Shown: piece after piece, positions 2,474 through 32,259 of the stretch
Layout of the letters: the number at the start of each line of letters is the position of its first letter
Numbering within the stretch: the first letter of the stretch is position 1
Source: Anaerolineales bacterium
Lineage (GTDB): Bacteria; Chloroflexota; Anaerolineae; Anaerolineales; E44-bin32
NCBI GenBank assembly: GCA_016927115.1
Contig: JAFGNH010000126.1
Location: forward strand, 46,541-110,540
DNA: 64,000 bases
Direction: 5' to 3'
Translations under genes and position numbers: made by a program
Notes under the pieces: model-generated
The model's input: the letters and a program-made list of their open reading frames with translations, nothing else
The model's database searches: none
Told to the model about the DNA's origin: nothing

Positions 2474-2500
2474 TTGAGGAAGCCGGCCATAAGTATCCAG

Positions 2501-2587: not shown

Positions 2588-2614
2588 GACCTTCCAGCAA
2601 ACGTTTGTTAAAAT
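2586..2614 (+). promoter_or_regulatory. Sigma70-type promoter for the adenine deaminase unit
   Basis: TTGACC - 17 bp - TAAAAT (5/6 match in each box); -35 overlaps the right arm of the inverted repeat. Confidence 0.6.
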
Positions 2615-5617: not shown

Positions 5618-5720
5618 ATTGTTGGAGGTGTGAAAGAACCGTAACGTCCTAACTGGTATATTGTTCAGCTATAAACCAAACGTAACAATACTATATTTTT
5701 TTATTAAAAGGAGATCTGAG

Positions 5721-6671
5721 ATGCGTAGTTTTGCCGGAAGAGATATTCTTTCATTGAAGGGTTTTGAGCGGAATGAGTTTTTCCGACTGTTTGAAATTGC
5801 TGACCGTCTTGCTCCCATTGCCCGGGATCGGAAGCGAAGTGATCTGCTTAAAGATAAGACCCTGGTAACCGCTTTCTATCAGCCAAGCACACGCACCCGC
5901 CTTGCTCATGAGGCAGCCATGCTGCGGCTTGGTGGTGTGGTGACAGGTTTCTCTGATGCGAAGATGACCCGTGCAGGCGATTTCTATCAGGAATCAATCA
6001 AAGACACCGTCCATATGCTGGAATACTACGGTGACGTGATTGTGATGCGGCATTTCAAGCAGGGCGCTCCCCAGGAAGCAGCCAAATGGGCCAGCGTTCC
6101 TGTTATCAACGCCGGTGATGGCTGGGGCGAACACCCCACACAGGTCCTCACGGACATGTATACCATCTGGAAGGAAAAAGGCACCCTTGACGGCCTTAAC
6201 TTCCTGCTGATCGGCGACATGCGCATGCGCACCATGCATTCCATGAGCTATGCCATGGCCCAGTTCGATATCAATGCCACTTACATTTCCCCGCCGGAAA
6301 TGAGCCTGCTTCCTGAGTTTAAGGAAGAAATTGATGCGCTGAACCTCAACTATCGCGAAGTTGACCATGTCAAGGATGCGATTGCTGATGCAGACGTGAT
6401 CTATATGGAGCCGGTTGTGCAGCCCGACTACACAAAGGCCCGTGACGAGCGCTCCGGCGATGTCGGCCTTACGCCTGCTCAGTACCAGGTAACACTGGAC
6501 GTGATGAAGAAGGCCAGGCAGGACTCCATCATTTTGCACTCATTGCCGCGTATGGATGAACTGCTTCCGGAAGTTGATGGAACCCGCCACGCCCGCTATT
6601 GGGAAGAGGCTTTCAACGGCGTTGTCATGCGAATGTCACTGCTGGCTTCCGTTCTCGGTGTGATGGAGTAG
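5721..6671 (+). CDS. Aspartate/ornithine carbamoyltransferase family protein (ATCase-like)
   Basis: QPSTRTRLAHEAAMLRLGG, INAGDGWGEHPTQVLTDMYTI, HSLPRMDELLPEVDGTRHARYWEEAFNGVVMRMSLL. Confidence 0.88.
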   Translation: MRSFAGRDILSLKGFERNEFFRLFEIADRLAPIARDRKRSDLLKDKTLVTAFYQPSTRTRLAHEAAMLRLGGVVTGFSDAKMTRAGDFYQESIKDTVHMLEYYGDVIVMRHFKQGAPQEAAKWASVPVINAGDGWGEHPTQVLTDMYTIWKEKGTLDGLNFLLIGDMRMRTMHSMSYAMAQFDINATYISPPEMSLLPEFKEEIDALNLNYREVDHVKDAIADADVIYMEPVVQPDYTKARDERSGDVGLTPAQYQVTLDVMKKARQDSIILHSLPRMDELLPEVDGTRHARYWEEAFNGVVMRMSLLASVLGVME

Positions 6672-6765
6672 GATTCGTTTTCAGACGCATGGCCGGTATG
6701 TTCCGGCCATGCGCCCCCATTTATTTCACTCTGATCCAGAAAATCAGACAGGAAAGGGAAAGAAG

Positions 6766-7746
6766 ATGCAGACAGGATTACGGGGCAGAAGCCTCATCAG
6801 TGATCTTGATTTCAGTAAAGAAGAAGTTGAAACCGTACTTGATGTTGCCTGGGACCTCAAAGCCAAGCGGGCAATGGGCCTGCCGCATGCATATCTGCGT
6901 GATAAGACCCTGGCGATGCTGTTTTTCTTCAGCAGCACACGAACACGGGGTTCATTTGAATCCGGTATAGCACAGCTGGGCGGTCACGGTGCATTCATTG
7001 ATTCCAAAGTGACCCAGATTGCCCACGGTGATACCGAAAAGGAACTCGGCGAAATTTTTGGCCGATATTTCGACGGTATCGCCATTCGTCATGTCACCTG
7101 GGGCGTCGGCAATCGCTACCTCAATCTGGTCAAGGAAGCTTCTCGTGCACCGATTCTGAATATGCAGTGTGAAGATTACCATCCATTCCAGTGCCTGGCA
7201 GACCTGATGACCATCCAGGAAAAGAAAGGCCGTGATCTCCGAAAAAAGAAGATCGTTGTCTCCTGGGCGTATGCTGAGAGCTATCGCAAGCCCAATTCAG
7301 TCGCGAATTCTCTCATCCTTCAGCTGCCGCGCTTCGGTGCTGATGTTGTGCTGGCGCACCCGCCGGAGTTCAACCTCAAACCGGAATTCATTGAGGAAGC
7401 CAAAGCACTTGCCAAACGCTACGGCGGCGCCTTCACCATGACCGATGATATGGAAGAGGCCATCAAAGATGCTGATGTTGTGTACGCCAAGTCCTGGGGC
7501 CCGATGATGACCACCACGACAGAAGAAGAAGCCATAGAGATTACCAGGAAATACAGCTCATGGATCACGGATGAAAAGAAGATGGCCCTGGCCAGGCCGG
7601 ATGCGATCTATATGCACCCGCTGCCGGCAGAGCGTGATGTGGAAGTAACCAGCGCAGTGATGGATGGCCCCAACAGCGTGGTGTTTGATCAGGCAGAGAA
7701 CCGTCTGCATGCACAGAAGGCTGTAATGGCTCTCACAATGTGCTGA
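6766..7746 (+). CDS. ygeW: Knotted carbamoyltransferase, YgeW-like
   Basis: FFSSTRTRGSFESGIAQLGGH, QCEDYHPFQCLADLMTIQEKKG, YAKSWGPM, MHPLPAERDVEVTSAVMDGPNSVVFDQAENRLHAQKAVMALTM; directly followed by carbamate kinase. Confidence 0.8.
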   Translation: MQTGLRGRSLISDLDFSKEEVETVLDVAWDLKAKRAMGLPHAYLRDKTLAMLFFFSSTRTRGSFESGIAQLGGHGAFIDSKVTQIAHGDTEKELGEIFGRYFDGIAIRHVTWGVGNRYLNLVKEASRAPILNMQCEDYHPFQCLADLMTIQEKKGRDLRKKKIVVSWAYAESYRKPNSVANSLILQLPRFGADVVLAHPPEFNLKPEFIEEAKALAKRYGGAFTMTDDMEEAIKDADVVYAKSWGPMMTTTTEEEAIEITRKYSSWITDEKKMALARPDAIYMHPLPAERDVEVTSAVMDGPNSVVFDQAENRLHAQKAVMALTMC

Positions 7747-7771: not shown

Positions 7772-8716
7772 ATGTCGAAGAAAGTAGCAGTTATCGCAGT
7801 CGGAGGGAACTCCCTCATTAAAGACAAGCAGCACAAGACTATTCCGGATCAGTACGTGGCAGCCGGTGAGTCGATATCACACATTATTGATATGTTGGAA
7901 GCAGGATGGGATTGTGTGGTCGCGCATGGAAACGGCCCGCAGGTGGGTTTTATCCTGCGCCGTGCAGAGCTCTCTCTTGGTGAACTGCACCCTGTTCCAC
8001 TGGATTACTGCGGTGCAGATACACAGGGTTCCATTGGCTACATGTTCCAGCAGTCAGCGTACAATGAGTTTCTCAAACGGGGCATGAAAAAGAATGCCTG
8101 CACCATCATTACCCAAACCCTGGTCGACCGCAAGGATCAGGCTTTCGCCAATCCCTCGAAACCGATTGGTTCTTTCATGGATGAGGCTGAGGCCAGGAAG
8201 CATGAGGCCGAAGACAGCTGGGCAGTTGTAGAAGATGCAGGACGCGGCTGGCGCCGTGTTGTCCCCTCACCTATCCCGCAGCGCATTATCGAAGCACCGG
8301 CTATTGAAGAACTTATCAATCAGGGATTCCTGGTGATCAGTGTCGGTGGCGGCGGTATTCCTGTTATCGAACGGGAAGACGGTACCCTGGAGGGTGTTGA
8401 AGCTGTGATCGATAAGGATTTCGGTTCGGCGATTCTTGCCAACAGCATCAATGCAGATCTGTTCCTGATTTCAACTGCAGTCGAAAAGGTAGCACTGAAC
8501 TTCAATAAGCCGGATCAGGTCTGGCTGGACAGGATAACAGTTGCTGAAGCCAAGCAGTATCTTGCTGAAGGGCACTTTGCCAAGGGCAGTATGGAACCCA
8601 AAATCAAGGCGATTATCAAGTACTTTGAAAATGGCGGCAAAGAAGCACTGATCACGAACCCTGAGAATATCGGCCGGGCGCTGAACGGCGAAACCGGTAC
8701 CTGGATTGTTCCGTAA
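7772..8716 (+). CDS. arcC: Carbamate kinase
   Basis: VAVIAVGGNSLI, VVAHGNGPQVGFILRRAEL, DYCGADTQGSIGYM, GSMEPKIKAIIKYFENGGKEALITNPENIGRALNGETGTWI. Confidence 0.95.
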   Translation: MSKKVAVIAVGGNSLIKDKQHKTIPDQYVAAGESISHIIDMLEAGWDCVVAHGNGPQVGFILRRAELSLGELHPVPLDYCGADTQGSIGYMFQQSAYNEFLKRGMKKNACTIITQTLVDRKDQAFANPSKPIGSFMDEAEARKHEAEDSWAVVEDAGRGWRRVVPSPIPQRIIEAPAIEELINQGFLVISVGGGGIPVIEREDGTLEGVEAVIDKDFGSAILANSINADLFLISTAVEKVALNFNKPDQVWLDRITVAEAKQYLAEGHFAKGSMEPKIKAIIKYFENGGKEALITNPENIGRALNGETGTWIVP

Positions 8717-13590: not shown

Positions 13591-14679
13591 ATGCTGCGAA
13601 TGGATGGGAAAAATAGTCTGGTAGAGTTTATTGTTGAGGTTGGCAGAGTACCGATCATCCCACTGCTGGGATTTCCTGGGAGGCAGATAACGAACTCTTC
13701 GATTAAGCAGAATGTGTTTAATTCGGGTGTTCATTTTCTTTCCTTGCTGGAACTCGTGGATCGTTTCCAGCCGGATGCGATCTTCCCCATGATGGACCTG
13801 ACTCTGGAGGCGAATGCTCTTGGGGCCTCTGTCCGCTATCATCTGATGGCGCCCCCAAGTGTTGATGATTTTCTGATTACCTCTGAAGAGGATATGGAAA
13901 AGGTGTATCCGGTGGACATTCTGCGAGATGGGCGTATCAATGTGTTTCTGGACACCATGCGATTGATGTCCGCGCATTTCACCATCCCTGCTGCGGGTTA
14001 TGTAATAGGGCCGTACACGCTGGCATCGCAGTTAATGGGAGCGAGCCAGGCGGCGAAAGCTGTGATAAAGAAGCAGGATTTTCTGGAGAAAGTGCTGGCT
14101 TTTTCCACGCATGTGATCGGGTTGTATGCCCGGGCCCTGGTAGAAGCAGGAGCTTCCATGATCTGCGTTCTGGAACCGAGCTCGATGATGCTTTCCCCCA
14201 GGCAGTTTGAACGGTTTTCAGGACAGTACCTGTCAGAGCTGTTTACCAGCTTTGATGCCAATCCCATTCTGCATATCTGTGGGGATACGACGCATCTGAT
14301 CGAAAAGATGGTAGCGACAGGCGCTGAAGGTTTAAGTCTGGATTCAATGGTTGATTTTTCTGCCATTATCAGGCAGCTGCCTGAAGATGTAGTCCTGATT
14401 GGCAATATAAATCCGGTTGAGATCATGCTGCTCGCAAAACCGGAAGAGGTGCATGCTAGAACCCGTCAATTGATGGATCAGATGAACGGTTTTCCTAACT
14501 TTATTCTTTCGACGGGCTGTGATCTCCCTGAGGATACACCCTTTGATAACCTGGACGCGTTCATGAGTGCCGGTTCTGGGCTTCCTCTGGGTACACGCCC
14601 TCCGGCTGAAAAGGTGCTGACAGCAGAGAAGGTGGCGATAACGGACCTTTTTAAAAGCGAATGGCAAAGGAGTGATTGA
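13591..14679 (+). CDS. Uroporphyrinogen decarboxylase-fold corrinoid methyltransferase (MtaA/MtbA-like)
   Basis: Zinc-site motif H-x-C-G (LHICGDTTHLIEKM, 14272-14280) with a distal Cys (ILSTGCDLPEDTPFDNLDAFM, 14518); neighbours encode corrinoid protein and MtmB-like protein. Confidence 0.85.
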   Translation: MLRMDGKNSLVEFIVEVGRVPIIPLLGFPGRQITNSSIKQNVFNSGVHFLSLLELVDRFQPDAIFPMMDLTLEANALGASVRYHLMAPPSVDDFLITSEEDMEKVYPVDILRDGRINVFLDTMRLMSAHFTIPAAGYVIGPYTLASQLMGASQAAKAVIKKQDFLEKVLAFSTHVIGLYARALVEAGASMICVLEPSSMMLSPRQFERFSGQYLSELFTSFDANPILHICGDTTHLIEKMVATGAEGLSLDSMVDFSAIIRQLPEDVVLIGNINPVEIMLLAKPEEVHARTRQLMDQMNGFPNFILSTGCDLPEDTPFDNLDAFMSAGSGLPLGTRPPAEKVLTAEKVAITDLFKSEWQRSD

Positions 14680-14743
14680 TCCCGGGCCGCCCCTTTGTCT
14701 GCAGCAGGTTATCAGTCCTCTTGCGTCTGAGGACTGCTTTCAA

Positions 14744-15623
14744 AATGGAATCACAGTATAATTCCAGGTACAGTACTGCTGCGGCCAGGTATGCTGATAT
14801 TACAGCAGACCGTTTGGGACAAGGGCAGTTCTTTCTGGAGAGGAGCAGGGAATTGGCGAAACGCATCAGCAGGGCAAAGGAAGTTGAACTCAAGCTGCTG
14901 GATCTGATAGAAAAAGGGGAGTGGAATGATGGCCGGCTGCCTTCTGAAACGGATCTTGCCGGTCAATTTCAGGTCAGCCGTGTGACCGTTCGGGAAGCGC
15001 TGTCATCACTCGCCGGGATGGGGGTCGTACAGCGTAAACACGGTCTGGGCACCTTTATCAGCAAGGATTGGTTTGGCGGCTCGGCCGGGATTCAGGCCAG
15101 ACTGGATGAACCCTTCGAATTGGGAACCATGATCACCCAATCTGGTTTTGACATGACCATATCGGTGGTGAGTTTTAATTACGGGAAAACAACAGAGCGT
15201 AATGCCCGGTTGTTGAATATTTCAGCGGATGATGAAACCTTCACTGTGCATAAGATATTTATGGCTGACGGCATGCCGGCGATTTCTGTGCAGAACATTG
15301 TTCCATTGAACCTCTCATTGGATAAAGCCCCTCTCGAAGTCCGGGGTATGATCAATCCGGAGGAACAGATCTACCTGCAGGTGGAGAAACTGTTTGGGCG
15401 GACAACGGGGTACCTGATATCTGATATCAAGCCGATGCTGGTGACAGAGGAGTTAACGAAGTATCTTGACCGGCCGGTTGGCAGCCCGATCCTGCATCTG
15501 GAAGAAGTGGCTTACAGTACGGACGGGGAGCCATTGTGGGTGGCGCTGGAGCATCATGTACCCGGGATTATCAATTTCCGTTTGAAGCGAACATTGTTCA
15601 AGAACACCAATTATCCAGGATAA
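14744..15623 (+). CDS. GntR-family transcriptional regulator with UTRA domain
   Basis: LPSETDLAGQFQVSRVTVREALSSLAGMGVVQRKHGLGTFIS; C-terminal UTRA-like. Start uncertain (14676 in ORF track). Confidence 0.82.
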
Positions 15624-15758: not shown

Positions 15759-15824
15759 ACTTTTGATATCATCTGAAGGCAGATAATTTAATTCGATTTG
15801 TGTATCGAGAAGATGGAGAGAGTA

Positions 15825-16526
15825 ATGACCGTTGACGAGTATTTTGAAAAAATAAAAGAGACAATCCTTGAATATGATGATGAGGCAGCTCCAGTTGCCG
15901 CCCAGGAAGCCCTGGACGCCGGCGTGGATCCGATGGACATTATCACCAAGGCGGTCCAGCCGGCAATGGACATTATCGGCAAGATGTACGATGAGGGTGA
16001 AGTTTTTCTCCCGGAACTTATTCTTGCCGGGGATGCGGCAACGAATATTCTCGATACTGTTGTCCCTTATATTTCCGTTGAAGATCAGGAGAAGGCTGTT
16101 ACCGGTACCGTTGTGATCGGTGTTATGTACGGCGATAACCATGATATTGGAAAGAACCTGGTGAAGGCTCTTCTGCAGGCATATGGTTTTAAGGTTATCG
16201 ACCTTGGTGTCGATGTTACCGTAAAGGAATTTATTAGTACCGCTGAAAAGGAGAAAGCCGACATCATTGCTTCCTCAACCCTGATTACTACTTCCATGCC
16301 TTACCAGCGCCAGATGATCCAGCTTCTGAAGGACAGTAACCGGCGCGATAAATTCTTTGTCATTCTTGGCGGCGGCCCGATCACTCCGAAGTGGACTGCT
16401 GAGATCGGTGCTGATGGTTATGGAAACAACGCCCAGGATGCGGTTGCTCTCTGCAGCAAGCTGATGTCGGACGGGAAGAATGCCCCACTGGATGAGCCGG
16501 TTATTATCGGTGCTGTAACCCGCTGA
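15825..16526 (+). CDS. Corrinoid (B12-binding) methyltransferase protein, MtbC/MtmC-like
   Basis: Cap helices plus cobalamin motif GDNHDIGKNLVKALLQAYGFKVIDLGVDV, then SSTLITTSMPYQRQMI and GGGPITPKWTAEIGADGYG. Confidence 0.92.
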   Translation: MTVDEYFEKIKETILEYDDEAAPVAAQEALDAGVDPMDIITKAVQPAMDIIGKMYDEGEVFLPELILAGDAATNILDTVVPYISVEDQEKAVTGTVVIGVMYGDNHDIGKNLVKALLQAYGFKVIDLGVDVTVKEFISTAEKEKADIIASSTLITTSMPYQRQMIQLLKDSNRRDKFFVILGGGPITPKWTAEIGADGYGNNAQDAVALCSKLMSDGKNAPLDEPVIIGAVTR

Positions 16527-16549: not shown

Positions 16550-17938
16550 ATGCAGAACAAGCCTGATATTCTGGAAATATTAAGACGGGGCGAAACCGGC
16601 GAATACTGCACTGTCAAGGAGTGGGATGTCCGCCGCGTTCCTGGTGCGGTCCGAAAGATGCTGAAAAAGTACGATCTTGCCAATACCTGCGATGTTGAAA
16701 ACCCCGTTAACTACGATTACGACCTGGCTGACCGCTTCTTTCAGGCCGGCTTCGATCTGGCAGTAGAACTGGGTATGCTCAATGAAAGCACAGAGCGTAT
16801 TATCCGTGTTTCTGAAGAGGAACTCAGTAACGCAGTGAAGTTTGCTCCCTCAGAACTGTTTCTCGGTGAAGGCGTGGACGGTACCTGGGTTAAGACCCGC
16901 CGGCCGGCAGATCCCTATCCCTGTAAGGTGGCTGCTTCGCTGGGCATTACTGTATCTGAGGATCTTTTTCTGGATCTTGTTACAGGGATCGCTCGTGAAC
17001 GAGAGGTCGATATTCTCGAGGCCGGTTCGATTGTAACCGTGCACGGTGAAGAAGTGCTTTCAGGCACACCTTTTGAAACACTGATGGGTCACTGGCATGG
17101 CCAGCTTCATCGTGAAGCCCGCCGCCGCGCTGGCCGACCCGGTATCGGTGCAATCGGCAGTATCTCTGCAGTGACGGAATACGGTCAGTTTGGTGCTTAT
17201 GGGACCCCGGGTGGTTTTCTGCCCCGTGATCTGGCGCTGATCCTGCTTCCATCAGAGTTGAAAGTTGATTACCGCAGTCTGCAAAAGATTGTGCATACCA
17301 TCAATATGGGTGGTGTTTTGAAATGTGACTCACCTTCGATGATCGGCGGCATGTCCGGCCCGCCCGAGGGCGCTGTGATCTCCGCTGTTGCCTGGTCGCT
17401 GCTTTCCTATGCTATTCTCCAGAACACGGTCGGTGGCGGCGAAACGTACGATGTGCGCTATCTCGCGAATGTCAATCGTGAAGGACTCTGGGCACTGAGT
17501 TTGATCGATCAGGCACTCAGCCGCAACACTGATACCATCGTACACACCATCGCCAATGAAGTATCCGGCCCGATGACCGACACGCTGCTCTATGAAATTG
17601 CGGCTGGTATGTCTGTGATCGCTTCCAGCGGGGCTTCGATGACAACCGGGCCAAGGACTGCCGGCGGGAAATTACACGACTACATCACACCTCTTGAATG
17701 CCGCTTCCTTGCTGAAGTCACGCATGCCTCTTCCGGCCTGGAACCAGCGGTTGTGAACGAGATCGTCAAACAACTGCTCCCCCGCTACGAAGATAACATC
17801 AAGACCCCCAATGTGGGTGTGCCCTATCAGGAAGCCTACGATATGGAAACCCACACACCGAAGAAGGAATGGGAAGACATCTATCGCCGGGTGAAGCAGG
17901 AAATGATCGACCTCGGAATTCCGATGGATACTTTTTAA
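16550..17938 (+). CDS. Monomethylamine methyltransferase (MtmB)-like protein without an in-frame amber codon
   Basis: 462 aa, MtmB length; aligns by eye with MtmB (AGRPGI..., SIVTVHGEEVLSGTPFE, HASSGLEPAVVNEIVKQLLPRYEDN, PYQEAYDMETHTPKKEW); reading frame uninterrupted. Confidence 0.82.
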   Translation: MQNKPDILEILRRGETGEYCTVKEWDVRRVPGAVRKMLKKYDLANTCDVENPVNYDYDLADRFFQAGFDLAVELGMLNESTERIIRVSEEELSNAVKFAPSELFLGEGVDGTWVKTRRPADPYPCKVAASLGITVSEDLFLDLVTGIAREREVDILEAGSIVTVHGEEVLSGTPFETLMGHWHGQLHREARRRAGRPGIGAIGSISAVTEYGQFGAYGTPGGFLPRDLALILLPSELKVDYRSLQKIVHTINMGGVLKCDSPSMIGGMSGPPEGAVISAVAWSLLSYAILQNTVGGGETYDVRYLANVNREGLWALSLIDQALSRNTDTIVHTIANEVSGPMTDTLLYEIAAGMSVIASSGASMTTGPRTAGGKLHDYITPLECRFLAEVTHASSGLEPAVVNEIVKQLLPRYEDNIKTPNVGVPYQEAYDMETHTPKKEWEDIYRRVKQEMIDLGIPMDTF

Positions 17939-18176: not shown

Positions 18177-18203
18177 CAGAAAGCATCAATTGAGGTGAAT
18201 CAA

Positions 18204-19577
18204 ATGGCAACATTACTGGTTAAACATGCGCAGGTTCTTCTGACCATGGATGATAAACAGAATGTTTTCCGGGATGGAGCGATGTTCATTCGGGATAATG
18301 TGGTAAAGCAGGTTGGTGCCACAGCGGACCTCCCGGATTCCGCAGATCGAGTGATCGACGCCTCCGGCATGGTCATAATGCCTGGATTGATTAACACCCA
18401 CCATCATCTCTACCAGACTTTGACCCGGGCTCTCCCGGGAGCACAGGACGCGAAACTTTTCGACTGGCTGGTGCGCCTCTATCCTGTCTGGAGTGAACTG
18501 ACCGATGAAGCGAATTATGTGTCCAGTAAAATCGGTTTTGCAGAACTCATCAAGACCGGCTGTACCACGGTGGCCGACCATCTCTACCTGTATCCTAACG
18601 ACGTTGCTCTGGATACCAACATTCGGGCTGCACAGGAAATGGGAGTACGTTTCCATCCCACGCGCGGCTCGATGAGCCTTGGGCGCAGCAAGGGAGGGCT
18701 GCCGCCGGATAAAGTTGTTCAGGATGAGGAGACGATTCTGAAAGACAGCCAGCGGCTGATTGAACGCTATCATGACCCTGAGCCCTACGCCATGGTGCGT
18801 ATGGCACTTGCGCCATGTTCCCCGTTTTCCGTCACTGCGGATGCAATGCGTGAAGCTGCCAGCCTGGCGCGTTCGTATGACAAGGTCATGCTGCACACCC
18901 ATGTGGCAGAAACCAGTGATGAACAGGATTTTACGCTGGAACAGTTTGGTATGCGTCCCGCACGATATATGGAGCATCTTGGATGGGTGGGGGAGGATAC
19001 CTGGTGGGCACACTGTATTTATCTTGATGATTCAGAGATAGAGATGATGGCTGAAACCGGCACAGGTGTAGCGCACTGTCCCTCCTCGAATATGCGATTG
19101 GGTTCCGGAATTGCCAAAATCCGCCAGATGCTGGATAAGGGAGTGAAAGTCGGGCTGGCCGTGGATGGATCTGCCTCAAACGACAGGTCCAGCTTGCTGG
19201 ATGAAGCCCGTCAGGCGCTGCTGCTGCAGCGGGTACAAAATGGTGCGGATGGGCTGTCTGTGATGGAGACGCTGCGGATAGGTACGGTTGGTTCTGCATC
19301 TGTGCTGGGGCGGGACGATCTCGGCCGGTTAGCACAGGGAATGGCAGCTGATTTTATCGGCTTCCGTACTGATCGCCCGGAAATGGCTGGCGGTGCCATC
19401 CATGATCCGGTTGCAGCACTCCTGCTGTCTTCACCATACACCGTCGATCTCTCGGTCATTAATGGGCGTGTTGTAGTTGAGGATGGTGAGCTGCTGGGAG
19501 TGGATATGAAGGCGCTGGTTGCCCGGCACAACGAACTTGCTGCGGCTATGGCAGCCAAACACCCGTACGTGCCATGA
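18204..19577 (+). CDS. Amidohydrolase, 8-oxoguanine deaminase-like
   Basis: MPGLINTHHHLYQTLTRALPGAQD, MLHTHVAETSDEQDFTLEQFGMRPARYMEHLGW, GTGVAHCPSSNMRLGSGIA, GLAVDGSASNDRSSLL. Confidence 0.88.
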   Translation: MATLLVKHAQVLLTMDDKQNVFRDGAMFIRDNVVKQVGATADLPDSADRVIDASGMVIMPGLINTHHHLYQTLTRALPGAQDAKLFDWLVRLYPVWSELTDEANYVSSKIGFAELIKTGCTTVADHLYLYPNDVALDTNIRAAQEMGVRFHPTRGSMSLGRSKGGLPPDKVVQDEETILKDSQRLIERYHDPEPYAMVRMALAPCSPFSVTADAMREAASLARSYDKVMLHTHVAETSDEQDFTLEQFGMRPARYMEHLGWVGEDTWWAHCIYLDDSEIEMMAETGTGVAHCPSSNMRLGSGIAKIRQMLDKGVKVGLAVDGSASNDRSSLLDEARQALLLQRVQNGADGLSVMETLRIGTVGSASVLGRDDLGRLAQGMAADFIGFRTDRPEMAGGAIHDPVAALLLSSPYTVDLSVINGRVVVEDGELLGVDMKALVARHNELAAAMAAKHPYVP

Positions 19578-19614
19578 GAGAGATACCAGGGCAGAGAAGC
19601 AGGTTGCCGTAAAT

Positions 19615-20247
19615 ATGGGTGCGCAGTTGAATCCTGATCTATGTGTTTCCGTGCTTGTCCCGGCAGTGTACCAGGAGGTGAATCTGGAGCTGTTTCTGCA
19701 GCGTTTTGGCACTGGCCGCCGACGCAGGGCAATGGAATCAATCTATAGTGACATGCTTGAAGAGGCGCGTGAGCTGTTGGAGCCCTTATCACTGTACCGA
19801 ACATTTCCTGCGTACGAGGTGCCGCAGTATGGTGATTTTATTGCGGGAGCAGAGTGGGTCACACTCGGAATCTGCTCCGTAGGGAGGGAGATTGACCGCC
19901 GGGTGGAAGATCTGGCGAAGGTGAAAATGGCCAACGCAGTGGTGCTGGATGAAATTGGCACCGTAATGGTTCTCGAGCTGGCCAATCAAATGTATAAGCA
20001 AATCCGGGCTGCAGCAAAGACGGCGCAGCAGCGGACCTCTCCTTCCTACAGGCCGGGTATTGGACGCTGGCCGCTGGAACTGCAGAATGATATCTATGAG
20101 GATCTGTCGGCAGAAGCGTATGGCCTCCAATTGCATGAATCGCTGCAAATTTTGCCTCAGAAGACGGTTAGTATGATAGTGGGCAGCGGTTCTGAACTGC
20201 GGATCCGTCGAGTCCCGGTGCAGTGGTATCGTATGTGGCAGAATTAG
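19615..20247 (+). CDS. Stand-alone protein resembling the cobalamin-dependent methionine synthase reactivation domain
   Basis: SPSYRPGIGRWPLELQNDIYEDL, LQLHESLQILPQKTVSMIVG; located between corrinoid genes. Confidence 0.6.
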   Translation: MGAQLNPDLCVSVLVPAVYQEVNLELFLQRFGTGRRRRAMESIYSDMLEEARELLEPLSLYRTFPAYEVPQYGDFIAGAEWVTLGICSVGREIDRRVEDLAKVKMANAVVLDEIGTVMVLELANQMYKQIRAAAKTAQQRTSPSYRPGIGRWPLELQNDIYEDLSAEAYGLQLHESLQILPQKTVSMIVGSGSELRIRRVPVQWYRMWQN

Positions 20248-20919: not shown

Positions 20920-21576
20920 ATGGCAACATTTGATGAAATTAAAGAAAAAATGGCTGAGGCACTCGTTGAAGGGGACGAAGAATCCGCAGCGGTAATTGCT
21001 CAGCAGGCTCTTGATGATAATATCGGCCCAACCAGGATTTTTAAGGAAATCATTACCCCGGTTCTGACTCAAATCGGTGAACGCTTTGGCCGGCTGGAAA
21101 TATTCCTGCCGGAAGTGCTGCTTTCTGCTGATGCGGCGAAAGCGGTCTTCCTGGTACTGAAGCCAGTTATCGAAGAACAGAAAGTGGAGGATTCCCATCT
21201 GGGTAAAGTTGTGATCGGAACCATGTCCGGAGATGTGCATGAAATCGGCAAGGATATCGTGGCGATCATGCTTGAGGTCAATGGCTTTGAGGTTAATAAC
21301 CTCGGGCGCGATGTCTCGGTTGATACACTTCTGAATACTGCCAGGCAGGATGGCGCTCAGATCATTGCCATGTCAAGCTTGCTGACCACGTCTCTTCCTT
21401 ATATGAAGGACATGATCAATATGCTCAAGGAAACAGGACAGAATAATATGTTCAAAACCCTGGTAGGTGGTGGGCCGGTGACCTCAGAGTGGGCGGCTTC
21501 CATTGGCGCTGATGGATATGGCAAGGATGCATCGGAAGCGGTACTGGTTGCCAAGAAACTTGTTGGCGCTGCCTGA
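20920..21576 (+). CDS. Second corrinoid (B12-binding) protein
   Basis: GDVHEIGKDIVAIMLEVNGFEVNNLGRDV, SSLLTTSLPYMKDMI, GGGPVTSEWAASIGADGYG. Confidence 0.92.
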   Translation: MATFDEIKEKMAEALVEGDEESAAVIAQQALDDNIGPTRIFKEIITPVLTQIGERFGRLEIFLPEVLLSADAAKAVFLVLKPVIEEQKVEDSHLGKVVIGTMSGDVHEIGKDIVAIMLEVNGFEVNNLGRDVSVDTLLNTARQDGAQIIAMSSLLTTSLPYMKDMINMLKETGQNNMFKTLVGGGPVTSEWAASIGADGYGKDASEAVLVAKKLVGAA

Positions 21577-21690
21577 TCGGTTTTAAAGGGAGATAAACCA
21601 GGAGCATTAGCTGATCTTTTCGGCAAAAAACGGGATTTTTCGATCGGCTTACCTGGCCATACAGCTGATAAACAATTGGATGATTGCTGC

Positions 21691-22428
21691 ATGGATGGAC
21701 AGAAGATGGCGTGTACAGAACCCAGAGGATTGATCGGTTGTGCGGTTCTACGCGGAGCGATTGAACCGCTCATGTATGCTGCCACTGACTGGGATTTTGT
21801 GGAGTTCCTGGATGCCGGCCTGCATACCACACCCACAAAGCTGCGGCCGGCGCTGCAGGACCGCCTCGATATGATTACAACTCCCAGTCGGATTTTTCTG
21901 GCGTATGGTTTGTGCGGCAATGGCCTGGAGGGACTCAGATCCGGAAAACATACTCTGATCATCCCGCGAAATGGCGACTGCATCCCACTGCTGATGGGTT
22001 CCTATCAGCAGTATGCAGCGGATTTGCAGGAAAATCCGGGAACGTACTATTTATCTGAAGGCTGGCTTGAAAATGATTTTCACCCGATCGGCCAGTACTC
22101 TGAATGGCTGCAGACCTATAATGAAAAAACAGCACGCCGATTGCTGGAATTATATTTCAAGCACTACCGGCGTGTTCTACTGTTAGGATATACGAAGGAA
22201 GAACTTGATCGTGGGCGGAATCTGGCTGGCGAAGGAGCAGAATTTCTGGGGCTGGCATACGCGGAGAAGCTATCTTCACCCCGGTATCTGCAGCACCTCC
22301 TGAAAACCGGAATGGACCTTACGGTATCCAATGAGGATTTACTTCTGATCCCGCCGGGTGGCGAGACGACTTCAATCATGTTTATCCGTGAGCTTGAGCA
22401 TAATCACACGGCGGCTGGTGGTAAATAA
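21691..22428 (+). CDS. DUF1638-type protein
   Basis: IFLAYGLCGNGLEGL, LIIPRNGDCIPLLMGSYQQY, GTYYLSEGWLEN; neighbour of corrinoid genes. Confidence 0.7.
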   Translation: MDGQKMACTEPRGLIGCAVLRGAIEPLMYAATDWDFVEFLDAGLHTTPTKLRPALQDRLDMITTPSRIFLAYGLCGNGLEGLRSGKHTLIIPRNGDCIPLLMGSYQQYAADLQENPGTYYLSEGWLENDFHPIGQYSEWLQTYNEKTARRLLELYFKHYRRVLLLGYTKEELDRGRNLAGEGAEFLGLAYAEKLSSPRYLQHLLKTGMDLTVSNEDLLLIPPGGETTSIMFIRELEHNHTAAGGK

Positions 22429-22555: not shown

Positions 22556-23437
22556 ATGAAATTTAACCTTTCAAGTCCGACTGCTGTAGATGAAGCGCTT
22601 CATCTGCTGCACAAATCCTCAGGGTCAGCGAGGCTGCTCGCCGGGGGAACCGATGTGATGGTGGGCATGCGGGTTGGCAAAATCAAACCGGATTTTCTGA
22701 TAAACCTGAACAAGATCCCCGATCTTGCCGGGATTCATCCCAGCTCACATTTCAAGGGAGGCCTCTTTATTGGCGCTCTTACGAAGATCAGTGATGTTGA
22801 ACATTCGCCTGAGCTCTGCGGTGGTTATCGTATCCTGGCACAGGCAGCCGGAACGCTGGCATCGGTCCAGATACGCAATCTGGCGACCCTTGGCGGAAAT
22901 ATCTGTAATGCAGCACCTTCAGCGGATACAGCGACATCACTGCTTGTGCTTGATGCCGTGGCAGAGATTGCCGGTCAGGAAGGTTTTTCATTTGTTCCCC
23001 TTCAGGACTTCTTTACTGGGCCAGGCACAACTGTACTTGGCAGCGACAAGATCCTGATCGGCTTTCATCTTCCACCTCAGCCGGAAAAGACAGCTGGTAC
23101 GTATATCAAGCATGGTGCCCGTAAAGCGATGGACTGCTGCACACTGGGTGTCGCAGCACAAATATCCATGGCGGATGGCCGTATAACAAAAGCACGGATC
23201 GCAATCGGAGCCGTTGCTCCCACCCCGCTGCGTGTACACGAGGCAGAAGCGGTTCTGGAAGGAAAGAATGGGCTTACCGACATTTTGATCAACAAAGCTG
23301 CACAGATAGCCGAGGAGGCTGCCAGGCCGATTGACGATGTGCGCGGGCAGGCATGGTATCGGAAACAGATGGTAGGTGTGGACACGCAGCGTGCGTTGTC
23401 GATGATTGCCGGGATGCTGGAAGGTGAGCAGGTATGA
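22556..23437 (+). CDS. Xanthine dehydrogenase family FAD-binding subunit
   Basis: LLAGGTDVMVGM, IRNLATLGGNICNAAPSADTATSLLVLDA. Confidence 0.93.
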   Translation: MKFNLSSPTAVDEALHLLHKSSGSARLLAGGTDVMVGMRVGKIKPDFLINLNKIPDLAGIHPSSHFKGGLFIGALTKISDVEHSPELCGGYRILAQAAGTLASVQIRNLATLGGNICNAAPSADTATSLLVLDAVAEIAGQEGFSFVPLQDFFTGPGTTVLGSDKILIGFHLPPQPEKTAGTYIKHGARKAMDCCTLGVAAQISMADGRITKARIAIGAVAPTPLRVHEAEAVLEGKNGLTDILINKAAQIAEEAARPIDDVRGQAWYRKQMVGVDTQRALSMIAGMLEGEQV

Positions 23438-23907
23438 TTAATATCACTTTAACTATCAATGGTATTGTACGGACTCTTGCTGTTTTGCCGGAGGAGCGGT
23501 TGTTGGATGTTCTGCGTGACCGCCTCGGATTGATGGGAACGAAAGAAGGCTGCGGCTCCGGAGACTGCGGCGCATGTACAGTACTGATGAACGGCCGTCC
23601 GGTGACATCCTGTATGGTCCTGGCTGCAACGGTGGACCAGGCTGATATTCTTACCATCGAAGGTCTGGAACAGGATGGGAAGCTGCATCCGCTGCAGCAG
23701 GCGTTTATTGATGAAGGGGCCGTGCAGTGTGGTTTCTGCACACCAGGTATGATTCTTTCCTCGCTTGCACTGCTTCAGGAGAATCCTGATCCGGATGAAG
23801 AAGCGATCAAACGAGCAATCGCCGGAAACCTCTGCCGCTGCACCGGGTATGCCCGGATTTTTGCCGCAATCAAAACAGCAGCATTAAGGATGCGGAGCGA
23901 TGCGTGA
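23434..23907 (+). CDS. Xanthine dehydrogenase family [2Fe-2S] subunit
   Basis: KEGCGSGDCGACTVLMNGRPVTSC, VQCGFCTPGM, NLCRCTGY; ATGA overlap with upstream gene. Confidence 0.97.
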   Translation: MINITLTINGIVRTLAVLPEERLLDVLRDRLGLMGTKEGCGSGDCGACTVLMNGRPVTSCMVLAATVDQADILTIEGLEQDGKLHPLQQAFIDEGAVQCGFCTPGMILSSLALLQENPDPDEEAIKRAIAGNLCRCTGYARIFAAIKTAALRMRSDA

Positions 23908-26215
23908 TCAAAAGGAACTGAAAGTTGTAGGAGTATCCCTGCCGCGCGTTGATGGAGTTCAGAAAGTTCGGGGAAGAGCGGTGTATGCACCAGACTTTGT
24001 ATTGCCGCGGATGCTGTATGCGAAAGTTTTGTGGAGCGATCGTCCGCATGCCAAAATCGTGCGCCTGGATGCTTCGAAAGCACTGCAGGTCCCCGGTGTC
24101 GTGGTGTTTGTCTCAGCTGAGGATGCACCCCGGAACCGCTATGGGGTCTATCTGAAAGATCAGCTGGTATTTGCCAGAGGTAAAGTACGCCATATCGGCG
24201 AGCCTGTCGCAGCGCTGGCTGCCGAAAGTGAGCAGGCGGCATTGGAAGCGCTGAAACTGGTGGAAGTTGTGTACGAAGATCTTCCGGTTGTTTTTGACCC
24301 CCTTGAAGCAATGCAGGATGGTGCGCCGATTGTTCATCCGGACCTGGAGAGCTATAGTGCAACCTATCCTAAGGTAGCCTATGGAAATGTGGCGCTTTAT
24401 ACCCGGCTGTCCATAGGTGATACAGAAAAGGGATTTGCCGAGGCAGACCACATTTTTGAGGATGAATTCAAGACACAGGCAATGTACCAGGGGTATGTGG
24501 AACCGCGTGCATGCGTGGCTGGTTTTGATCAGCGTGATAAGCTAACTGTGTGGACAAGCAACCAGCAGATTGCAGAGTGCCACGCCGAGCTTGCCGCTGC
24601 ACTGGATGTGCCTATGACGGATGTGCGCGTGGTTGGGACAGCTCTGGGAGGCGGTTTTGGTGGAAAACTGAAAACCCATCTCGAACCGATTGCAGCATTG
24701 CTGGCAAAAAAGACCGGCCGGGCGGTGAAAATCGTGCTGACCCGTGAGGAAGATATGATTGCCAGCCGGGCGCGTCCACCATACATTATCCGGCTGAAAA
24801 CAGGTGTCACCAACGAAGGCCGTATCACAGCGCGGGAGACGCAGCTCGTATCAGACTGCGGCGGTTACAGCGATCATGTGGTTGGTACCATGGGCCTGGC
24901 AGTTACTTTTGCCCAGGGTGCGTACAAGATTCCAAACTGTGAGGTAAAAGGGTACGTTGTCTACACCAATAATCCCAATTACAGCTGCATGCGCGGGTAT
25001 GGCGCGCACCAGATAGACTTTGCCAACGAATCCCAGATGGATATGATCGCTTCCCGGATGGGGTGGGATCCCGTGGAATTCCGGCGAGAGAACCTCATTG
25101 AAGATGGTGATGTACTTGTCAGTACACAACCGATCAAGGAAGTGACTATCAAAGAGACGATGGACGTTGCCCTTGAACGGTCAAAATGGGTTGAGAAGGT
25201 TAAGCAGGAAAAAGTCCTCGGCGATAAAGTGCGTTATGGTATCGGCATCGGAAACACGATTATCAACATGGGCCTTCTTTCATCCTCAGCCATGATCAAG
25301 TTCAACGGTGATGGCACAGCTACGATCCTGACTTCAGTGATGGACCTGGGTACAGGCAATCATACTGCTCTGATTCAGATTGCGGCGGAGGAACTGGGGA
25401 TGCTGGCGGAGCAGGTTAATATTGCAGAAGTTGACTCCGATTCTTCACCGTATGATCTCGGGCAGATAGCCAGCCGTACCATCTTTGATGCCGGCAATGC
25501 CGTCAGACTTGCAGCGAAAGATGCCCGGAAGAAATTATTTGAAACAGCTGCAGAGCTGCTGCAGGTGCCGGAAGAGGATCTTGAGTCTGAAAGTGGAATG
25601 ATCTTCTCCCGTACAGACCGGTCAAAGGAAATTGCGATAGCTGGTGTGAACGGCTACCGCATCTGGGTGAAAGGCGGGCCTGTAGTAGGCGGTTCAGGCT
25701 GGCTGGGGAGACCGGGTTTTGAGGAAGAAGTCGGAGAGGGTTATCCGCAGGCACCTTCCAAAACTTTCGTTTTCGGTACACATATCGCAGAAGTGGAAGT
25801 TGATATAGAAACCGGCAGGGTGACGGTGGTGAAAGTTACGGCAGTTCATGATGTTGGCAGGGCGGTCAATCCGCTTGGCGTACAGGGACAGATTGAAGGT
25901 GGTGTGGTGCAGGGTGTCGGTTATGCCCTTATGGAGGAGCTGCAGGTGAAGGACGGTGTGATTCTGAATCCTGACTTCCTGAATTACCGGATGCCGACCA
26001 CGCTGGATATCCCCGAGATTGATCCCGTGATCCTTGAAATTCCATCGGAATTCGGCCCCTTCGGTGCCAAAGGGCTCGGGGAGCCGGTGATGATGGGTGT
26101 GGTACCGGCAATAGCGAATGCGATTGAAAATGCGATTGGTGTGCGGGTAACCGAAGTGCCTATCACGGCTGAACGGCTGCTCCAGGCGGTGAAGGAAAAG
26201 AACCAGCGAAAATAA
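23900..26215 (+). CDS. Xanthine dehydrogenase family molybdopterin-binding subunit
   Basis: GTALGGGFGGKLKTHLEPIAAL, MRGYGAHQ, GQIASRTIFDAGNAVR, GAKGLGEPVMMGVVPAIANAI. Confidence 0.95.
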   Translation: MRDQKELKVVGVSLPRVDGVQKVRGRAVYAPDFVLPRMLYAKVLWSDRPHAKIVRLDASKALQVPGVVVFVSAEDAPRNRYGVYLKDQLVFARGKVRHIGEPVAALAAESEQAALEALKLVEVVYEDLPVVFDPLEAMQDGAPIVHPDLESYSATYPKVAYGNVALYTRLSIGDTEKGFAEADHIFEDEFKTQAMYQGYVEPRACVAGFDQRDKLTVWTSNQQIAECHAELAAALDVPMTDVRVVGTALGGGFGGKLKTHLEPIAALLAKKTGRAVKIVLTREEDMIASRARPPYIIRLKTGVTNEGRITARETQLVSDCGGYSDHVVGTMGLAVTFAQGAYKIPNCEVKGYVVYTNNPNYSCMRGYGAHQIDFANESQMDMIASRMGWDPVEFRRENLIEDGDVLVSTQPIKEVTIKETMDVALERSKWVEKVKQEKVLGDKVRYGIGIGNTIINMGLLSSSAMIKFNGDGTATILTSVMDLGTGNHTALIQIAAEELGMLAEQVNIAEVDSDSSPYDLGQIASRTIFDAGNAVRLAAKDARKKLFETAAELLQVPEEDLESESGMIFSRTDRSKEIAIAGVNGYRIWVKGGPVVGGSGWLGRPGFEEEVGEGYPQAPSKTFVFGTHIAEVEVDIETGRVTVVKVTAVHDVGRAVNPLGVQGQIEGGVVQGVGYALMEELQVKDGVILNPDFLNYRMPTTLDIPEIDPVILEIPSEFGPFGAKGLGEPVMMGVVPAIANAIENAIGVRVTEVPITAERLLQAVKEKNQRK

Positions 26216-26361: not shown

Positions 26362-27771
26362 ATGACAGAAGCAACACTACTTGTGAATAATATCCATACA
26401 CTTGTGACAATGGATGAGGAACGCCAGGTTCTGCAGGATGCCTGGATCCTGGTACGGGGTGGCATGATAGATAAGATCGGCACAGGCAGTCCACCGGCTG
26501 CAGACCGAACGATAGATGCTTCCGGCCATATTGTGCTCCCAGGCCTTGTTAACACCCATCACCATTTCTTTCAGACACTGCTGCGAGGTGTCCCCTCGAT
26601 GCAGAATAACGAACTGTTTCCCTGGCTGGAGGATCTTTACCTGCTGATGGCGGGGATGACAGATGAAATGGTCTATGTGAGTACGCAGGTGGCAGTTGCT
26701 GAATTGATGCTTTCAGGGTGTACCACGGCACAGGATCATTCCTACCTGCATGTGAATGATATGAAGTTTGAGACAGAGATCGCGGCGGCGCAGGAATTGG
26801 GAGTCCGCTTCCATCTCAGCCGCGGCAGTTTTGATGTCGGCCAGTCACAAGGTTATCTTCCTCCGGATGAAGTAGTGGAGGATCATGATGAGATCCTGGC
26901 GGACTGTGAAGCCCTGATCAAGGGATTCCATGAATACGACCGGTTTGGAATGGTGCGTATCGAACTTGCGCCGTGTTCTCCTTTTTCGGTTACCGAGAGC
27001 CTCATGGAAAAAAGTGCCGAGATGGCGGAAAAATACAGTGTTGGACTCACGACACACCTTTGTGAGACACACGATGAAGAACAATTCTGCCTCGATAAGT
27101 TCGGAAAAACACCGGTTCAATTTGCTGCTGATCTGGGCTGGATGGGAGAGAGAACCTGGTACGCACACTTTGTGCATGCAGAAAACAGTAACATTGATGT
27201 GATGGCACAGACGGGAACAGGAGTGGCACACTGCCCGGGTTCAAATGCACGTCTTGGTTCAGGTATCGCGCGTGTTAATGAGATGTTGAAGAAAGGTGTA
27301 AAGGTCGGCCTGGGTGTTGATGGCAGTGCTTCGAATGACAGTTCCCACATGCTGGCTGAGGTTAGACTGGCACTGCTCTTCCAGCGTGCGAAGTATGGAG
27401 CAGATGCGCTGACCGCGACACAGGCCCTGGAACTGGCTACGCTGGGCGGCGCTGAAGTACTCGGCCGTAACGATATTGGTGCACTCAAACACGGCATGGC
27501 GGCAGATTTTATCGGGATAAAACTTAACCAGCTGGGTTATGCCGGAGGACTGCATGATCCGGTCGCTGCACTTGTCCTCTGTGAACCGGTCAATGTGGAT
27601 TTCTCAGTCATCAACGGCAAGGTTGTTGTTGAAGATGGAAGTCTTTCTGGCCTGGATCTGGAACAGCTCAAGAAACAGCAAAACAAACTCGCGGCTGCAT
27701 TGGTTCAGAAAGCTGAAAAGCGATACAGTAAAAATATGACCAGCTGGACATGGCGCAGGAGGGGAGAATAG
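26362..27771 (+). CDS. Amidohydrolase, 8-oxoguanine deaminase-like (paralogue of 18204-19577)
   Basis: LPGLVNTHHHFFQTLLRGVPSMQNNELFPWLEDLY, THLCETHDEEQFCLDKFGKTPVQFAADLGWMGERTWYAHFVH, GTGVAHCPGSNARLGSGIA. Confidence 0.88.
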   Translation: MTEATLLVNNIHTLVTMDEERQVLQDAWILVRGGMIDKIGTGSPPAADRTIDASGHIVLPGLVNTHHHFFQTLLRGVPSMQNNELFPWLEDLYLLMAGMTDEMVYVSTQVAVAELMLSGCTTAQDHSYLHVNDMKFETEIAAAQELGVRFHLSRGSFDVGQSQGYLPPDEVVEDHDEILADCEALIKGFHEYDRFGMVRIELAPCSPFSVTESLMEKSAEMAEKYSVGLTTHLCETHDEEQFCLDKFGKTPVQFAADLGWMGERTWYAHFVHAENSNIDVMAQTGTGVAHCPGSNARLGSGIARVNEMLKKGVKVGLGVDGSASNDSSHMLAEVRLALLFQRAKYGADALTATQALELATLGGAEVLGRNDIGALKHGMAADFIGIKLNQLGYAGGLHDPVAALVLCEPVNVDFSVINGKVVVEDGSLSGLDLEQLKKQQNKLAAALVQKAEKRYSKNMTSWTWRRRGE

Positions 27772-28131: not shown

Positions 28132-29418
28132 ATGAAGAAAAGAGCACTATGGATATTCAGCATTTTGCTGATCGCCGCTATGATTCTTTCAGCCTGTGGT
28201 CCGGCTGGAGAAGCGCCGGTAGAAGAAGCACCGGCTGCAGAAGCACCGGCTGCTGAAGAACCGGCAGCTGAAGAGCCAGCTGCTGAAGAGCCAGTCGCTG
28301 AAGAAGCTACCATGGAAATCCCTGACATTGAGGACGGGATGTTCAACGTTGCTGTAGCAATGCTCAGTGTACATGATGACGGTGGCTGGTCGCAGGCCCA
28401 GTATGACGGCCTGACCTATCTTGAAGAAAATATGGAAAATGTACATACAGCCTACGTCGAGAACGTTGCTGAGGGTGCGGATTCCGAACAGGTTTTCCGT
28501 GCGCTTTCCCGCAAGGGCTTCGATCTGATCATCGGTGGCTCTTTTGGATACATGGACTCGATGGAAGTGGTTGCTGAAGAGTTCCCGGATATTGCGTATG
28601 TCCACATCAGCGGCTACAAAGCCAACGAAGTTAACTTCGGCAATCTGATGGGCGCCATGGAAGATATGAAATACCTGGCCGGTATGCTGGCTGGTTCCCG
28701 CTGCGTTGCAGACGGTGCAACCAAGACCGGTTACATGGCAACCTTCCCGATTCCGGAAGAAACACGCCTGGGTAATGCTTTTGCTCTTGGTTTGCAGCAG
28801 ACATGCCCTGAGTGCACCATGGATGTGCGCTGGATCAATACCTGGCATGACCCGATCATTGAGCGTGAGGCGGCTGATTCCCTGTTTGACGCCGGCGCGC
28901 ATGTGGTTTTCACCGGCGCGGATACACCGGCTCCTGCTCTGGCAGCTGCCGATCGTGAAGGCGTGTACGGTATCACCTATGACTGGTCCGGTTCGTGTAC
29001 AGATCCTGCTTGTCTGACGGCCCCGTATTGGAACTGGGGCCCGGTGTTCCTGCAGATTGCAGAAGAGGTTCAGGCTGGTACCTATGTATTTGGCTGGCAC
29101 TACTTTGATGCTGATACCGGTGGCCTTGGTCTGTCCGGTTTTATGGATGGACAGGAACCCCAGCCGGGTATCGCGGACCTGCCTGAAGAGGATGTTCAGA
29201 TGGTGCGTGACACCCTTGCCTTGATGCTGGCTGGTGAGTTCGATCGTTTTGATGTTTTCTCAGGTCCGATCGTTGATAATGCCGGAAACACCATTGTTCC
29301 GGAAGGCGAAAAGATGGAGCAGCTTGATATGGATCAATTCCCCTCCTACGGGGGTGGCTGCACCTACTGTATGTACTGGTGGAACCAGAACATAACCGCC
29401 GAGCTTCCTGAAGAGTAA
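28132..29418 (+). CDS. BMP-family (PnrA/Med-like) substrate-binding lipoprotein of nucleoside ABC transporter
   Basis: Lipobox ILSACGP, Ala/Pro/Glu linker, FNVAVAMLSVHDDGGWSQAQYDGL, LIIGGSFGYMDSM; followed by ATPase and two permeases. Confidence 0.9.
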   Translation: MKKRALWIFSILLIAAMILSACGPAGEAPVEEAPAAEAPAAEEPAAEEPAAEEPVAEEATMEIPDIEDGMFNVAVAMLSVHDDGGWSQAQYDGLTYLEENMENVHTAYVENVAEGADSEQVFRALSRKGFDLIIGGSFGYMDSMEVVAEEFPDIAYVHISGYKANEVNFGNLMGAMEDMKYLAGMLAGSRCVADGATKTGYMATFPIPEETRLGNAFALGLQQTCPECTMDVRWINTWHDPIIEREAADSLFDAGAHVVFTGADTPAPALAAADREGVYGITYDWSGSCTDPACLTAPYWNWGPVFLQIAEEVQAGTYVFGWHYFDADTGGLGLSGFMDGQEPQPGIADLPEEDVQMVRDTLALMLAGEFDRFDVFSGPIVDNAGNTIVPEGEKMEQLDMDQFPSYGGGCTYCMYWWNQNITAELPEE

Positions 29419-29428
29419 ATCCTGATAA

Positions 29429-29464
29429 TGACCGGGTACATCTTGTACCCGGTCACTTGTTCTT
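29429..29464 (+). terminator. Hairpin between binding protein and ABC ATPase (terminator/attenuator-like)
   Basis: 12-bp stem TGACCGGGTACA/TGTACCCGGTCA then CTTGTTCTT. Confidence 0.6.
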
Positions 29465-29566
29465 ATCACTTATTTTCAAAATTTTTCTTATGAAGCAGCC
29501 CACCTTTTTTCCCACCCGATGGGAGGAGCGGATCTGCTTTAATATCTAAAATAAACGAGAGAGACT

Positions 29567-31132: not shown

Positions 31133-32258
31133 GATGGATACTGCGAAACCGGAAAACCGGTTTTTGTTACCCTTCAGGATCCGTATAGAAGCACGATTGA
31201 AAGAGCCATCGCGCTGGTTTGCTTCGCTGCTTTCGTTTCTTGCAGTTGTCCTGGCGTTGTTGATCGGAATGTTGATAATCAAACTGGGCGGGGGGCAGCC
31301 GTGGCTTATCTATAAGCATATTGCCAAATCATCCTTCGGCAGCCTGGGTGTTTTTTCCGACACGATGGTAAAAGCGATCCCGCTGATGCTGGTCGGGCTG
31401 GCGTGTGCTCTGGCTTTTCGGATGCGGTTGTGGAACATCGGTGCAGAAGGGCAGTTTTTCCTGGGGGCATTCGGTGCCAGCCTGATAGTGCTGCTGCCGG
31501 TTTTGCCTGAAGGTGCACCCCGCTGGCAGTTCATCACGCTGATGATCCTGTCCGGTATGTTATTTGGTGCGCTGTGGGGCTTTATCCCCGGGTTCTTAAA
31601 AGCAAAATACAACGTAAATGAAGTGATTTCAACGTTGATGATGAACTACATCGCAGTTGAATGGAATAACTATTTTATCTATGCGGTTTGGTCTGAAGGT
31701 GGTTTTCAGATGTCGCGGATGTTCCAGCGTAATGCCTGGCTGCCGCGTCTGGCAGATTACGCCAAAGAAGTGAAATTATTCAGCGGTTTGACGACGCATC
31801 TGGGACTTGTGTTAGCGCTGGTGGCTGCAGTGATTGTATGGTTGATTCTGACGAAGAGCCGGTGGGGATATGAAATCAGGTTAATCGGAGATAATCCACG
31901 TGCAGCTGAGTATGCCGGGATTTCGATTAAGAAAAATGTTGTTTATGTAATGCTGCTTTCCGGCGCGCTGGCCGGGCTGGCTGGTATGTCGGAAATCAGC
32001 GGGGTTGTTCACAGGTTGCAGGGTGCGATTTCACCGGGATATGGCTACACGGGTATTATTATCGCCTGGCTGGCCAAGCTGAACCCGCTGGCTGTTGTTG
32101 TTGTATCGATTCTATTCGGAGCTCTGATCCTGGCTGGGCGTGAAGTACAGCCAAGCGGCATTCCAACATTGATCCAGGGTGTAATCATGGTGTGTCTGAT
32201 CGCCAGTGAATTCTTCATGCGTTACAGGATCACGATAACGCGGCGGGTGGAGGGCTAA
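31125..32258 (+). CDS. Nucleoside-type ABC transporter permease
   Basis: Multiple TM segments; LWNIGAEGQFFLGAFGA, YNVNEVISTLMMNYIAVEWNNYF. Confidence 0.92.
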   Translation: MTEMDTAKPENRFLLPFRIRIEARLKEPSRWFASLLSFLAVVLALLIGMLIIKLGGGQPWLIYKHIAKSSFGSLGVFSDTMVKAIPLMLVGLACALAFRMRLWNIGAEGQFFLGAFGASLIVLLPVLPEGAPRWQFITLMILSGMLFGALWGFIPGFLKAKYNVNEVISTLMMNYIAVEWNNYFIYAVWSEGGFQMSRMFQRNAWLPRLADYAKEVKLFSGLTTHLGLVLALVAAVIVWLILTKSRWGYEIRLIGDNPRAAEYAGISIKKNVVYVMLLSGALAGLAGMSEISGVVHRLQGAISPGYGYTGIIIAWLAKLNPLAVVVVSILFGALILAGREVQPSGIPTLIQGVIMVCLIASEFFMRYRITITRRVEG

Positions 32259-32259
32259 C

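Follow-up and report, generated by a model that had tools for sequence, protein, structure and literature searches.

A pyrrolysine-free MtmB homologue in a purine-degradation island of an Anaerolineales bacterium and its possible role in the demethylation of N-methylated purines

Corrinoid-dependent demethylation does not always require pyrrolysine (Pyl). MtgB, MtpB, MtcB and MtyB, of the non-Pyl MttB superfamily, are Pyl-free corrinoid demethylases, and these non-Pyl relatives of MttB are quaternary-amine enzymes. The N-demethylases of methylxanthines, NdmA and NdmB, are oxygen-dependent Rieske enzymes. In the MtmB family, whose namesake is the Pyl-containing monomethylamine methyltransferase of M. 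barkeri, MtqB of Methanococcoides methylutens is the sole non-Pyl member to have been assayed, and a 2026 study established that it removes methyl groups from tetramethylammonium and choline (PMC13044021). MtmBs without Pyl mostly lack an assigned function; in the tree of 1,061 MtmBs published with MtqB, which covers sequences with and without Pyl, the remaining non-Pyl ones are described as of unknown function (PMC13044021). Non-Pyl MtmBs are therefore already recognised as a group, one familiar for years, and the gene described here is not in itself a new branch, as a first-pass annotation of the same DNA had supposed.

We analysed a 64,000-nucleotide stretch of DNA from an Anaerolineales bacterium of the Chloroflexota (assembly GCA_016927115.1, contig JAFGNH010000126.1, positions 46,541 to 110,540), hereafter the window, the features of which are collected in Table 1. 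The product of one of its genes, here called mtmB, matched the family profile PF05369 over profile positions 2-450 of 450 (cut-off 25 bits), and it could be aligned with MtmB1 of M. barkeri (1l2q/1nth/1tv2) over residues 7-457. This bore out the family membership and the open, TAG-free frame reported in the first-pass annotation; judged from the sequence, chance is excluded by a 462-codon frame combined with a 270-bit family match. Because the homology with MtmB runs from end to end, the protein is predicted to share its TIM-barrel fold. The structure predicted from an input of five sequences was of low quality (mean pLDDT 46.5).

Table 1. Features of the window, in order of position (window coordinates)
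Feature	Position	Strand	Evidence
Adenine deaminase	3029-4828	+	TIGR01178 503 bits, over cut-off
Two carbamoyltransferase homologues	5661-6671, 6709-7746	+	TIGR00670 over cut-off; YgeW-like match under cut-off
Carbamate kinase	7772-8716	+	arcC over cut-off
UroD-family MtaA/MtbA-like protein	13591-14679	+	PF01208; NF004889/TIGR01463 matches below cut-off
GntR/UTRA regulator	14676-15623	+	PF00392 + PF07702
Corrinoid protein, DNHDIG cobalamin motif	15798-16526	+	PF02310 + PF02607; TIGR02370 202.7 bits, just below cut-off 215.3
Non-Pyl MtmB-family methyltransferase (MT1), 462 aa	16550-17938	+	PF05369 270.8 bits; 1l2q/1tv2 E 1.9e-53
Codon ATC (Ile202), at the pyrrolysine 202 position of M. barkeri MtmB	17153-17155	+	Gap-free alignment, AGRPG block
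8-Oxoguanine deaminase	18195-19577	+	NF006055 671.6 bits, cut-off 532; 7ww2 E 6e-158
Distant homologue of MetH-type activation module	19519-20247	+	Four-homologue profile vs PDB 1j6r (annotated methionine synthase), E 3.3e-08
Second corrinoid protein, DVHEIG motif	20920-21576	+	PF02310 + PF02607; TIGR02370 187 bits
DUF1638 protein	21676-22428	+	PF07796
Molybdenum hydroxylase, xanthine-dehydrogenase type	22556-26215	+	Three subunit genes
Mo hydroxylase FAD subunit	22556-23437	+	
Mo hydroxylase 2Fe-2S subunit	23434-23907	+	Cysteine pattern + position
Mo hydroxylase Mo subunit	23900-26215	+	XdhA 521 bits, 4-hydroxybenzoyl-CoA reductase alpha 575 bits, both under cut-off
Second 8-oxoguanine deaminase	26362-27771	+	NF006055 623 bits, cut-off 532
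ABC importer, BMP/nucleoside type	28132-33228	+	Binding protein match; gene set found again at further mtmB loci
Importer binding protein	28132-29418	+	Closest to AtzT-type binding protein 6pi5, E 5e-42
Further importer genes (putative ATPase, permease)	start 29567, 31125, 32260	+	Same gene set at other mtmB loci

The residue standing in for pyrrolysine was located through the conserved AGRPG block, which aligns without gaps (AGRPGMGV-X202-GPET in M. barkeri, where X is Pyl, versus AGRPGIGA-I202-GSIS in the window protein). The first-pass annotation was right in stating that an ordinary residue occupies the site, but the site lies two codons upstream of the stretch that it quoted (SISAVTEYG..., residues 204-222, from 17159), and its 'codon ~218' is the number of another residue. 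None of the genome's three MtmB genes has an internal stop, and genes in the window end on TAG in the ordinary way, for instance at 13438 and 33228. We considered the possibility of a recoded amber codon and rejected it, since the frame contains no TAG and TAG is a normal stop; a true monomethylamine methyltransferase was likewise rejected because pyrrolysine is lacking.

The pyrrolysine machinery was searched for as PylS and PylD in a genome that is 92% complete. The best PylS match reached 26.6 bits (cut-off 178), and matches at this level occurred as well in 13 of 14 control genomes, the majority of which lack Pyl; PylD had no match. Furthermore, none of eight genomes searched jointly (that of the window and seven relatives) had PylS above the cut-off. 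The absence of pyl genes, which had been proposed as a check, was thus borne out for these two, and at 92% completeness the conclusion is strong but not absolute. MttB (PF06253) had no match in the genome either, and membership of the MttB family was rejected on this basis.

Residues E229, E259, Q333 and Y335 of M. barkeri MtmB, which presumably line the Pyl pocket, are aligned with L230, D260, I334 and N336 in the window protein. Since these residues are replaced in addition to the Pyl site, the substrate is likely to differ from that of MtmB, in line with the change of substrate envisaged from the outset. Four other residues of the window protein (E157, Y217, P220 and D301) are the same in all six of its closest clade members and are uncommon outside this set. 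Homology and gene order together make the predicted class of the enzyme, that of a Pyl-free corrinoid methyltransferase MT1, a secure assignment.

The corrinoid-protein gene at 15798 ends 23 bases 5' of mtmB, and its product, which has a DxHxxG-type motif, is likely the cognate partner of MtmB. The MetH-activation-like protein is a possible partner for corrinoid reactivation or repair. The UroD-family protein, with candidate zinc-ligand Cys/His residues (HIC at 228, TGC at 308), is a possible MT2 or second MT1. It is, together with five PF00809 genes elsewhere in the genome, among the MT2 candidates, none of which is tied to the window system, and the cluster contains no THF-linked MT2. The genome has three genes for the reductive activase RACo and a gene for the CODH/ACS beta subunit, so that methyl groups carried by a corrinoid protein could be fed into the Wood-Ljungdahl pathway. 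At other loci, a RACo gene adjoins mtmB itself: this is the case at an orthologue (L037) and also at L075 and L095.

The surroundings of mtmB point to purine catabolism, and this most informative feature of the locus had escaped the first-pass annotation. Two 8-oxoguanine deaminases, an adenine deaminase and a carbamate kinase, all scoring over the cut-off, are found around mtmB and support a function related to purines. The island extends further over window positions 37170-63719, with a D-hydantoinase, SsnA, several more sets of Mo-hydroxylase-like genes, and genes for a CofC-like protein and a luciferase-like monooxygenase.

Further support comes from the conservation of this context and from its enrichment over random regions. 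A 79% orthologue in the same genus (L069) retains the order corrinoid protein, MtmB, 8-oxoguanine deaminase, MetH-activation-like protein seen in the window. In a 61% relative (L038), three MtmB genes are accompanied by subunits of xanthine-dehydrogenase type and an 8-oxoguanine deaminase, and nucleobase-deaminase-type amidohydrolases number three at this locus; the locus of a 52% relative that does not belong to the class (L196) has a Mo hydroxylase, two such amidohydrolases and a nucleoside-type permease. Compared with random regions that were a convenience choice from available contigs, mostly of the same genomes and unmatched in length to the mtmB loci, at least one purine category was present at 18 of 47 Chloroflexota mtmB loci versus 3 of 58 regions (p = 3.8e-5) and at least two at 12 of 47 versus 1 of 58 (p = 2.3e-4), on contigs whose frequent shortness biases against the detection of neighbour genes. 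For the window clade outside its own genome, the same kind of control gave purine genes at 6/10 loci versus 3/64 random regions (p = 8e-5). A hypothesis-free clustering of the genes near mtmB returned corrinoid proteins, nucleobase-deaminase-type amidohydrolases, nucleoside-transporter permeases and XdhA as the main enriched non-methyltransferase families. On an MtmB tree whose only Pyl protein has a long branch, the purine-linked label was clustered (14 changes versus a shuffled mean of about 21, with 0 of 500 shuffles as low), and one clade was nearly devoid of it (1/15 rows). The association of mtmB with purine genes appears not to have been described before.

Other observations were made at loci of this kind. 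At L075, a Rieske oxygenase gene (2380-3348, minus strand) adjoins MtmB, an 8-oxoguanine deaminase and a nucleoside-type importer. The best solved relatives of its product are SxtT/SxtDIOX, followed by NdmA/NdmB; as a distant Rieske relative near one mtmB locus only, it is taken as no more than suggestive. About 30 kb of one genome (L073/L074 of G501) contain six MtmB genes, one MttB, a Mo hydroxylase, amidohydrolases, an adenine deaminase and a nucleoside-type importer. In one MtmB subclade (L078, L079, L080, L081 and L099), ECF-transporter-like genes adjoin, with related genes clustering at all five loci; they include a PF09819 permease at L099, a family that we take to include the YkoE-type thiamine/hydroxymethylpyrimidine component, and a CbiQ protein at L081. 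These neighbours may indicate another heterocycle as substrate in that subclade. Five genomes (G062, G224, G482, G049 and G272) each have at least 20 MttB-family (PF06253) genes, which represents an extreme case of corrinoid-demethylase expansion within the Chloroflexota.

What is read from the sequence is the family, the absence of Pyl, the adjacent corrinoid protein, the RACo and CODH/ACS genes and the recurrent purine-gene neighbourhood. From gene context only, we infer that the substrate is an N-methylated purine or a related heterocycle; we give a probability of roughly 45% to the proposal that the window protein is a non-Pyl corrinoid methyltransferase demethylating such a compound and that the methyl group passes to the Wood-Ljungdahl pathway. 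The substrate, the direction of transfer, the identity of MT2 and every reaction step are proposals. In this scheme MtmB would be the MT1, the component specific for the substrate, in a pyrrolysine-free corrinoid methyltransferase system with three components. The BMP-type importer would bring in the N-methylated substrate, such as a compound of the 7-methylguanine or methylxanthine type, and the Ile202 protein, keeping the MtmB fold, would bind it in a reworked pocket; the ligand would be an N-methylated purine, either nucleobase or nucleoside, or an N-methyl heterocycle closely related to one. The N-methyl group would be attacked by Co(I) on the adjacent corrinoid protein, the cobalt being kept reduced by RACo, possibly with the MetH-activation-like protein, and an MT2 would transfer the methyl group to tetrahydrofolate and hence to the Wood-Ljungdahl pathway. 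The demethylated ring could then be deaminated by 8-oxoguanine deaminase and hydroxylated by the molybdenum hydroxylase, with ATP possibly formed from carbamoyl phosphate by carbamate kinase.

The main rival to a purine substrate, because MtqB uses them, is a quaternary amine. The window protein would then demethylate choline, tetramethylammonium or a betaine, and the purine genes would form a separate nitrogen-scavenging island beside mtmB. We consider this somewhat unlikely. The non-Pyl MttB relatives are likewise quaternary-amine enzymes, and the purine interpretation is weakened by two further observations. A 66% paralogue in the same genome (L005) stands alone near NRPS-type genes, outside any purine island and with no adjacent corrinoid protein, and 4 of the 10 clade loci outside the window genome lack core purine markers, three of these four being on contigs shorter than 14 kb. 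The characterised non-Pyl MtmB also speaks for a quaternary amine and against a purine (PMC13044021). Yet the adjacency to purine genes is kept in several genera and in one lineage outside the class, and no betaine or choline transporter gene was identified next to mtmB in the window.

The proposal that the protein demethylates a purine is also weakened by the Mo hydroxylase, which had no match over the cut-off among curated xanthine models, and by the lack of a THF-linked MT2 in the cluster. The former bears on another possibility, which we regard as rather unlikely, namely that the same hydrolases handle a different N-methyl heterocycle or amide, of the N-methylhydantoin/creatinine type or an N-methylpyridine such as trigonelline, with no purine involved. 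The Mo subunit had 1rm6 as its best PDB match, 4-hydroxybenzoyl-CoA reductase thus being closest among solved structures. A D-hydantoinase/dihydropyrimidinase (37170) and SsnA (43178) belong to the same island, a sister species (L114) has MtmB with the orthologous Mo hydroxylase and a hydantoinase, and UbiD and Amidohydro_2 genes are present near a relative (L070). Against this stand the 8-oxoguanine and adenine deaminases, which exceed curated cut-offs, and the recurrence of nucleoside-type importers at mtmB loci. A scaffold or inactive paralogue is very improbable: nothing direct favours it apart from the expansion of the family into many paralogues, whereas the frame is intact, family positions are conserved and the adjacent corrinoid protein is kept across orthologues.

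The conserved link with purine uptake and breakdown narrows the candidate substrates of some non-Pyl MtmBs to a specific class that can be tested. If a purine is indeed the substrate, the system would do without oxygen what the Rieske enzymes do for methylxanthines, and bacteria of anaerobic sediments would gain carbon and energy from methylated nucleobases derived from RNA turnover or from tea and coffee waste. Full-text searches of the open-access literature returned no description of a corrinoid pathway for methylated purines. We would extend the proposal to the phylum with marked reserve: the Pyl-free MtmB paralogues of Chloroflexota (up to seven per genome) might carry out an anaerobic, cobalamin-dependent N-demethylation of methylated purines (modified nucleosides, 7-methylguanine, methylxanthines), the various paralogues each acting on a ring position of their own, and so join purine salvage to acetogenic methyl metabolism.

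Compared with M. barkeri MtmB, the window protein has the same predicted fold and a corrinoid-protein partner, but it differs by the isoleucine at the Pyl position and the four pocket replacements, and its genome, in which neither PylS nor PylD was found, offers a bacterial purine island together with RACo and Wood-Ljungdahl genes. With MtqB, compared by description only, it has in common the MtmB family, the lack of pyrrolysine and a corrinoid-protein partner; MtqB, however, is archaeal, acts on tetramethylammonium and choline and is linked to coenzyme M. MtgB, MtpB, MtcB and MtyB share the general chemistry but belong to a different family (PF06253). Finally, NdmA and NdmB resemble the proposed system in their substrate class, N-methylpurines, whereas as enzymes they are unrelated to MtmB.
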